The translations under genes were made by a program, and so were the position numbers. Source: Candidatus Rokuibacteriota bacterium (GTDB taxonomy: Bacteria; Methylomirabilota; Methylomirabilia; Rokubacteriales; CSP1-6). From it: a stretch of 36,335 nt of DNA. The notes beneath the pieces were generated by a model. The model saw only the letters and a list, made by a program, of their open reading frames with translations, ran no database searches and was not told the origin of the DNA. Every line of letters starts with the position of its first letter. The stretch's first letter is position 1. Where the stretch lies: contig QHSA01000089.1 of assembly GCA_003220315.1 (NCBI GenBank), forward strand, positions 1 through 36,335, in the 5' to 3' direction. This document shows positions 25,742-27,879 of this stretch, in pieces.

Positions 25742-25969
25742 CTAGGCGGTCCTCACCAGCGCCCAGCCGGACGCCTGGAGATCCATGCTGATGTCGCGTT
25801 GGCGTCTGGACTCTTGGCGCCGGTCGTCTGCCGCTTGCTCCAGACGCTGGCGCCGCTCCGCCACCCGCCGGTCGACGATGACGTCCACGGCCGCACCGCC
25901 GAAGACACGCTTGAGATACGTGTAGTGTCCCGGGTCGGTGCGCGAGACGATGAGGAGCAGACGGACCAC
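25742..25969 (-). CDS. Small conserved protein, paralog A of a 75/76-aa family
   Basis: A 75-aa protein starting VRLLLIVSRTDPGHYTYLKRVF, then VDVIVDRRVAERR, a charged ERR/DRR-rich stretch and RQRDISMDLQASGWALVRTA. It is a clear paralog of the protein at 26596-26826. The N-terminal half looks like a short beta-alpha-beta (RLLLIVSR.....YLK) unit followed by a charged helix. GTG start, no strong ribosome binding site. I do not recognise the family function; it might be a receiver-like or nucleotide-binding fold, but no phospho-acceptor pattern is clear. Confidence 0.65.
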   Translation of the reverse strand: MVRLLLIVSRTDPGHYTYLKRVFGGAAVDVIVDRRVAERRQRLEQAADDRRQESRRQRDISMDLQASGWALVRTA

Positions 25970-26083
25970 GGAAGCGAGGCTAGGCCCGCGATGTCCCTTC
26001 GTGAAATTCGGAGAACCATGGAGGCGGCAGGGGGGAAAACCCTGAGACGCCCGCGTGACACCGTCCTTGAAGGGTAAGGAGGT

Positions 26084-26536
26084 CTATCGGGGAGTAATCG
26101 AGATACGATCCTCGACGACGAAGTCCTGGCGGAGTCGAGACACTTCCGCACGTACGATCCCGAGCGCAACGTCTCTCTGCTCGGGTGCGGCCACGTGGCC
26201 GGCCACCTCAATCAGAGCCGGCGAGCCCCGCCAGAAGGGCACGTGAACGTTGAGGGTGAGATGGAGTTCAATCGGCGCCGCTTGGCGGCGCAAGGCACCA
26301 GTCACTGATGATTGGAGACGCATGGCCTCGGCGGCGCGCCTCTCTCGGAGATCGCCAACCGCGATGACGGCGATGAGAAGGCCCACGAGGCTTACCACTG
26401 CGATGACGGCGAAAGCGCCGGCCGAGTGAGATTCGGCGGGCACGTGCTGGGCCCAGGCCAGGCGATAGACCGTGAGGAACGCGAGGCCGAGGCCGGCACA
26501 GACCATGACGGGCACGACACGACCCTTCCGGATCAA
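26084..26536 (-). CDS. Two-TM membrane protein with BON-like C-terminal domain
   Basis: A 150-aa protein with hydrophobic segments at about 7-28 and 41-61, a basic linker, then about 60 residues (LHLTLNVHVPFW...ALIEVAGHVAAPEQRDVALGIVRAEVSRL...VEDRISI) shaped like a BON/OsmY domain: strand, GxV strand, helix, strand. The fit is by pattern only. The start is TTG 26536, preceded on this strand by AGGAG six bases away. It lies between two copies of the 75/76-aa paralog family, all on the minus strand, suggesting a functional cluster. Confidence 0.6.
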   Translation of the reverse strand: MIRKGRVVPVMVCAGLGLAFLTVYRLAWAQHVPAESHSAGAFAVIAVVSLVGLLIAVIAVGDLRERRAAEAMRLQSSVTGALRRQAAPIELHLTLNVHVPFWRGSPALIEVAGHVAAPEQRDVALGIVRAEVSRLRQDFVVEDRISITPR

Positions 26537-26595
26537 GCGCGTCTCCTGCAGCCGAGACGGTAGAGCGGCGTACGTGGCGCCAGAGGACGTACCGG

Positions 26596-26826
26596 CTAGC
26601 GCCTCACCACCGCCCAGCCGTAAGTCTGGAGATCTTTGGCGATGTCCCGTTGGCGCCGGTCCTCACGGCGCCTCTCGACCGCCCTTCGCTCACGGAGTGG
26701 AAACCGCCGACGCTCCTCTGCCCGACGGTCGAGGATCACATCCACGGTCTCGCTGGCGAAGACATGCTTCAGGTACGTGGTGCGTGACGGTTCGTTGCGG
26801 GAGACGATGACGAGCAGACGGGCCAT
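26596..26826 (-). CDS. Small conserved protein, paralog B of a 75/76-aa family
   Basis: A 76-aa protein: MARLLVIVSRNEPSRTTYLKHVF, VDVILDRRAEERR, charged RERRAVERRREDRRQR, and DIAKDLQTYGWAVVRR. It matches paralog A through both halves. The ATG at 26826 is preceded by GGAGGG six bases upstream on this strand, a strong ribosome binding site that settles the start, although the frame is open to 27102. Function unknown. Confidence 0.72.
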   Translation of the reverse strand: MARLLVIVSRNEPSRTTYLKHVFASETVDVILDRRAEERRRFPLRERRAVERRREDRRQRDIAKDLQTYGWAVVRR

Positions 26827-27224: not shown

Positions 27225-27401
27225 ATGAACCGGCTCACGATTGAAGAGCGTCGTCGGATCTACCTGGCCCAGCAACGGACGCGCGAGACACTGCGAGCCC
27301 GACCCCATTCCGAAACTGTCGGGGCCTTCGCCCCGCCCTCGGACCGGGGAAGGCTCAGGTGGAGGCCCTGCTGCTCACGCTGTAACGCCGGGACGAGATG
27401 A
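27225..27401 (+). CDS. Small protein with conserved-looking N-terminus, possibly frameshifted
   Basis: A 58-aa frame MNRLTIEERRRIYLAQQRTRE..., with GAGGAG at good distance before ATG 27225. The first 25 residues look like a genuine charged helix. The second half (SDRGRLRWRPCCSRCNAGTR) is out of character and may follow a frameshift. It ends 7 bases before the DksA-like ATG, so it may be a leader gene in that operon. Function unknown. Confidence 0.45.
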   Translation: MNRLTIEERRRIYLAQQRTRETLRARPHSETVGAFAPPSDRGRLRWRPCCSRCNAGTR

Positions 27402-27408
27402 GGATGTT

Positions 27409-27879
27409 ATGGGGAGGACATGTTCGCTTGATCGCCAGATCGTAAGGGCGTTCCAAGCCCTTCTCCTGGAGAGGCGCGCCAAGCTCCGGGAGTCAGTCCG
27501 CGCGAGGATGGCGGAGCGCAGGGCGGGCGAGCCCCGCCGGAGCCCGGAGGACGCGACTAACGCGGTCGAGTCGCTTGGTGAAGAACTCGAGGTGGCCATG
27601 CTCGACCGCGAGAGCCGCGAGGCCGCGCAGATCGACGCTGCGCTCGAGCGTCTGGCCCGAGACGAGTACGGGATCTGCCGCAGCTGCGGCACGGTCATCG
27701 GGCTCGGGCGGCTCAAGGCGCTGCCATTCGCCCAGTGCTGCACCGCGTGTCAGGCAGGAGTGGAGGCGCGCGAGCGCGGAGTCGGCGCCGAATGGCGGTC
27801 CCGCTCCATCCGTCCAGAACCCCGAGCGCCCCGGCCGGCCTTCGCGGTTAGCCGAGGAGGGCCGTGGCGGGAGACTTGA
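27409..27879 (+). CDS. DksA/TraR-type zinc-finger protein
   Basis: A 156-aa protein with an N-terminal coiled-coil-like helical part (about 10-85) and a DksA/TraR C4 zinc finger: C90xxC93 (YGICRSCG) and C111xxC114 (CCTACQ), 17 residues between the pairs. The C-terminal 40 residues are Arg/Pro-rich and unusual. DksA proteins bind the RNA polymerase secondary channel and work with ppGpp; whether this one does is inferred. The coiled-coil tip acidic pair of true DksA is not obvious. ATG 27409 has a GATGAGG-type ribosome binding site. Confidence 0.78.
   Translation: MGRTCSLDRQIVRAFQALLLERRAKLRESVRARMAERRAGEPRRSPEDATNAVESLGEELEVAMLDRESREAAQIDAALERLARDEYGICRSCGTVIGLGRLKALPFAQCCTACQAGVEARERGVGAEWRSRSIRPEPRAPRPAFAVSRGGPWRET

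Follow-up and report, generated by a model that had tools for sequence, protein, structure and literature searches.

An arginine-rich, multi-copy domain family of the Rokubacteriales and its possible role in stressosome-linked signalling

Two small paralogous proteins encoded on either side of a membrane protein in a Rokubacteriales contig raise the question of what they are and whether the three genes belong together. The window analysed is the entire 36,335-nucleotide contig (C12) of the genome G000 (Candidatus Rokuibacteriota bacterium; assembly of 4.26 Mb, 98% complete). Open reading frames were called with a simple home-made codon-usage caller, and codon usage supports all three genes as coding. 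P1 (25742..25969, minus strand; GTG start) encodes 75 amino acid residues and P2 (26596..26826, minus strand) encodes 76. The first-pass annotation had described 75- and 76-residue paralogs lying close together on one strand around a membrane protein; this is confirmed by the open reading frames and by the pairwise alignment of P1 and P2 (E = 4e-17, 56% identity), which are true paralogs. The domain of approximately 75 residues that they share is named X here, and both proteins are stand-alone copies of it, P1 being supported also by a profile match and by its place in the 31-row clade described below, and P2 by a genome search.

A search of G000 with P2 as the query located X in 21 places, the weakest of which are marginal, and a profile located 24. 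X was found in 65 of 95 genomes of the phylum, with 1–36 copies each, and the copy number differs strongly among relatives; none of the f5 genomes among the 95 contains a copy. No X was found in plasmids (tblastn with P2) or in viral contigs. X is a modular, multi-copy and apparently lineage-specific domain family of the Rokubacteriales. Its members share the pattern DRRxxERR...(E/D)RRxxxRR, the seven arginines of which are invariant in 18 members from G000; across 80 members R34, R35 and R58 are invariant, and at least 90% keep R39, R40, R53 and R57. All seven arginines, and a nearly invariant glycine near the C-terminus, are present in both P1 and P2, which places them in the family.

Searches of Pfam with 18 members, and of NCBIfam and PHROGs with 80, gave either nothing or sporadic matches to single members, and X has no match in the PDB. 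AlphaFold2 predicts for X alone a β-α-β unit, a low-confidence arginine-rich stretch and a final α-β (pLDDT 68, pTM 0.49); the first β-α-β is predicted with higher confidence within a fusion of X to an RsbT-like kinase. Foldseek with stand-alone X returned nothing significant and assigned no fold. The first half of a receiver domain has a β-α-β start of similar length, and X both adjoins and is fused to receivers, but X is about two thirds of the size and the conserved acidic residues of the receiver are not conserved in it. A relationship to receivers was not supported by hhalign (probability 0.3%, E 0.19), nor was one to the STAS proteins RsbS and RsbV (probability 0.2%).

In the X tree, which was built from 78 columns and leaves many forks open, the nearest paralog of P2 is not P1 but a copy on contig C191 of the same genome (85% identical; sister with support 98/80). 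An origin of P1 and P2 by local tandem duplication was rejected on this ground. The P2 region lies within a segmental duplication, as in both the window and C191 it is followed by a gene for a small transmembrane (TM) protein and then by a DksA/TraR-type gene. In the window the former (27226..27399, plus strand; MNRLT...) is a truncated copy and the latter (27409-27879) encodes a DksA/TraR zinc-finger protein (Pfam zf-dskA_traR, E 6.8e-9); both are divergent from P2. Intact forms of the small TM-protein gene occur divergent from the X gene on C191 (L141) and near an X fragment (L129).

The proteins to which X is fused in frame, with partner domains identified by Pfam, are mostly signalling proteins. 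They comprise MASE1-PAS-HisKA-X, which has no HATPase domain (L101, L102); X-HATPase_c_2, in which X is N-terminal to an RsbT-like kinase (L110, L117); GAF-X (L107); GAF-MshEN-X (L034); X-Response_reg (L118); X-SLT (L111); and Guanylate_cyc-AAA_16-TPR-X (L099; the retrieved part of L098 contains AAA_16-TPR-X). HisKA-X was found in four genomes (G030, G078, G081, G082) and X-HATPase in five (G030, G077, G079, G076, G006), the G006 copy having one TGA within the aligned stretch, where a separate reading gives a 229-residue open reading frame. In X-HATPase the kinase half has structural matches to SpoIIAB/RsbW, with E as low as 3.8e-10, and is approximately 50-55% identical to the RsbT proteins of the stressosome operons described below. 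Signalling genes directly adjoin X genes in 11 of 118 cases and control genes in none of 176, counts that are not fully independent because some of the loci are orthologous.

Other neighbours, named by eye, recur with particular classes of X. In several genera the gene that directly precedes X is purA-like (L103, L104, L105, L128, L148, L170); a different class of X comes after an amidase-like gene (L112, L143, L165) and a further one after an NYN/PIN-like gene (L114, L133, L167).

Stand-alone X genes are found upstream of a stressosome operon, on the same strand and with zero to two genes between X and RsbR, in G001, G002, G003, G006, G010 and G079. In G000 the linkage can only be inferred, as X (C121) and the operon (C137) are split by a contig break; their flanking genes match those in G002. 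This gene order occurs in at most 7 of approximately 21 genomes with a close RsbS, the others examined having no X there. The operon encodes RsbR, RsbS, RsbT, a SpoIIE-type phosphatase, an RsbU_N histidine kinase and a NarL-type regulator, in which Pfam identifies STAS with RsbRD_N, STAS, HATPase_c_2, SpoIIE and an RsbU_N-PAS-HisKA_3-HATPase kinase, respectively for the first five. RsbR, RsbS, RsbT and RsbX thus stand in one operon, the defining content of a stressosome module, with the RsbRD_N score under the curated cut-off. A tree clade of 31 rows (support 88/87) unites P1, P2, seven stressosome-adjacent X, four of the five X-RsbT fusions and both HisKA-X.

Coupling of stressosomes to two-component systems has been reported (PMC10014275), as have RsbU_N histidine kinases in stressosome operons and the RsbT-RsbU_N principle (PMC12143880). 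The present operon has the same components as the Vibrio vulnificus-type stressosome; it differs in that in some genomes it is headed by an X gene of about 75 codons, that it encodes a MASE1-PAS-HisKA sensor lacking an ATPase domain, and that X is fused to an RsbT paralog. The sensor gene lies upstream of the RsbR gene at L208:2656-4182 and L257:3526-5049, and no HATPase domain was matched by Pfam in the L208 protein. Literature searches found no paper linking the stressosome with Rokubacteria or with MASE1, and the papers and libraries searched gave no description of X, of its fusions to the RsbT paralog and the ATPase-less HisKA sensor, or of the promoter-like element described below. A small cysteine-containing protein (KVVCAWCQ...) is also encoded beside stressosome operons (L211, L220), and a module similar to it is fused N-terminally to X at L173/L174.

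Many X genes of the P1/P2 clade have upstream of them a promoter-like element with the sequence TTTCCGGAA-N14/15-TAGNCT, before which a TTnCGG...CCC box is usually found. The copy before P2 (26949..26978, minus strand) reads TTTCCGGAA-N15-TAGCAT and has the dyad TTCGGGTTTTACCCGAA before it. The copy before P1 (25977..26006, minus strand) reads TTTCACGAA-N15-TAGCCT, with two mismatches to the family element, and ends 7 nt before the P1 start codon, between the membrane-protein gene and P1. With up to three mismatches allowed, the window contains no match besides these two; as a mean of 0.75 is expected by chance, their weight lies in their positions and not in their number.

Counted at up to two mismatches within 250 nt, and with the clade chosen by sequence signature and not by tree, the element lies upstream of 17 of 34 clade genes (15 of 32 after the duplicate locus of the window is dropped), against 2 of 90 X genes outside the clade and none of 944 non-X genes. 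Fisher values overstate this enrichment, as the motif was discovered on the same sequences in which it was then counted; the match before P1 and a genome-wide pattern search are more independent support. In the latter, a shortened exact pattern (TTCCGGAA-N14/15-TANNNT) occurred five times in G000, always before an X gene, and 14 times in six genomes, 12 of them before X and the remaining two in G001; the reversed control pattern occurred four times. At the two-mismatch threshold a recognisable element is missing in about half of the clade, including the stressosome-adjacent genes of G006, G010 and G079. No sigma-54 promoters beyond three scattered matches were found upstream of X genes.

The genes preceded by this promoter-like element make up a candidate regulon. 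On C191 it heads X, the small TM gene and two regulators, and in G076 a gene for a NarL-type regulator has one full element, box included, in front of it. Taken by itself, the short pattern is not specific to X everywhere: TTTCCGGAA-N14-TATACT is kept, without the upstream dyad box, before a gene for an RRM-type RNA-binding protein in G030, G078 and G081 (L284, L285, L286), and the bare pattern is located elsewhere in G044 and G045, which belong to another family.

Based on the fusions, the gene order and the element, X may be a docking or regulatory domain of signalling proteins, tied genetically to a stressosome and two-component network and possibly expressed under its control; we hold this reading at about even confidence. 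The stressosome would release RsbT, the released RsbT would activate the RsbU_N kinase, and the NarL-type regulator of that kinase would switch on X genes through their shared promoter. The supposed binding of the regulator to the element is a guess drawn from one promoter and one operon. Stand-alone X proteins would then dock on HisKA sensors lacking an ATPase domain, on RsbT-like kinases and on receivers, where they could bridge partners in the network or compete with the X domains fused to those partners. Several points stand against this reading: the X-stressosome gene order occurs in at most 7 of the approximately 21 genomes, many X copies have purA, an amidase gene or another gene outside signalling as their neighbour, and the fold is only moderately predicted and has no PDB match.

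A stronger form of the proposal, which is doubtful, is that X is a new docking domain joining split signalling proteins in Rokubacteria (ATPase-less histidine-kinase sensors, RsbT-like kinases and receivers), and that the dozens of stand-alone copies, many expressed from a dedicated stressosome-controlled promoter, would be plug-in connectors, changing the wiring of the network when the cell is under stress. With up to 36 copies per genome, and fusions to serine-kinase parts of the stressosome and to histidine-kinase parts, X offers a concrete test of how bacteria connect a large number of sensors to a small number of outputs. Hundreds of otherwise unassigned proteins of an uncultured soil lineage also gain a family and a likely role in signalling.

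The main rival to docking is ligand binding, a tentative possibility. PilZ-type single-domain adaptors are small, have conserved arginines, occur alone or fused to many signalling proteins and are present in many copies per genome. X resembles them by analogy in size, arginines, fusions and copy number, and could be a small regulatory domain of similar logic whose (D/E)RRxx(D/E)RR pairs recognise a ligand rich in phosphate, such as a nucleotide second messenger, polyphosphate or a phosphoprotein, the stand-alone copies being mobile adaptors that report the ligand. The near-invariance of the pairs formed by R34, R35, R39, R40, R53, R57 and R58 fits this proposal, as does the fusion of X to the N- or C-terminus of widely differing signalling proteins, among them the MshEN protein and cyclases; part of the arginine-rich stretch is, moreover, predicted at very low confidence, which would suit a segment that is disordered until it meets a partner. 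However, X matches no ligand-binding family, either by fold or by profile, and there is no sequence match to PilZ (no Pfam match at E up to 1), which is a β-barrel while X is predicted to begin with β-α-β and to end with α-β around its low-confidence stretch. The arginine pairs also alternate with acidic residues, so that salt-bridged protein interfaces are equally possible.

That X is a basic protein binding nucleic acid is improbable. Its pI of 11.0-11.4 and its 15-21 Arg/Lys residues would suit such a role, and one class (L131, L171) is fused to a short module judged by eye to resemble a transposase helix-turn-helix; the recognised fusion partners, however, are dominated by kinases, receivers, GAF domains and cyclases, acidic residues alternate with the basic ones, and no DNA- or RNA-binding family is matched consistently.

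That duplication or mobile elements account for the spread of X copies, and that these do little in the cell, is very improbable. The variable copy number, the segmental duplication that holds P2 and its C191 paralog, and a pN/pS of 0.74 for the P1/P2 pair point in that direction. Among the other compared copies, however, pN/pS is 0.23-0.57, and it is 0.23-0.28 for G000 and G002 copies in matching gene contexts; gene order is conserved at several loci (purA-X, amidase-X) and in-frame fusions are kept across genomes.

The protein encoded between P1 and P2 (26084..26536, minus strand; 150 residues) had been described as a BON-like protein with two TM helices. Two hydrophobic stretches are indeed present, 19-residue hydrophobic windows starting at residues 5-10 and 36-47, but an AWAQ motif, found in several homologues too, sits between them, and the protein probably has a signal peptide and one TM helix, followed by a C-terminal domain. 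None of 11 homologues matches Pfam BON at E up to 1, and at most a very distant relation by pattern is possible. The gene is single-copy in G000 and lies approximately 60 bp from P2, with which it is possibly co-transcribed. The protein was not found in three of three genomes of the same genus, one of which is 100% complete and has 32 X copies. At 29 fetched loci of its homologues, some shorter at contig ends, no X was found within about 1.5 kb by a profile search that does recover X at the positive loci.

A conserved envelope-stress unit made up of P1, P2 and the membrane protein is hardly credible and was rejected: the common strand, the tight spacing, the possible co-transcription and the small unrelated TM proteins that come after a few other X genes (L267, L271, L279) speak for it, but the membrane protein is missing in the three same-genus genomes, its homologues lie at X-free loci, all three genes are missing from the syntenic sigma-factor/YdjM-like locus of G002 and G003 (same genus), and P1 has a promoter-like element of its own. 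The paralogs are likewise no matched pair, and in the profile survey most X homologues stand singly and dispersed, with no partner that recurs throughout, which is the outcome that the first-pass annotation had named as refuting its proposal. The membrane protein is thus seen as an incidental neighbour. What survives of the suggested envelope-stress or signalling function is, for the paralogs, the signalling part and possibly the stress part, from the family-wide fusions and the stressosome linkage. A second YdjM-like gene of G000 (C141:14403-14909; L252), 76% identical to the window copy, lies just upstream of an X-receiver fusion gene.
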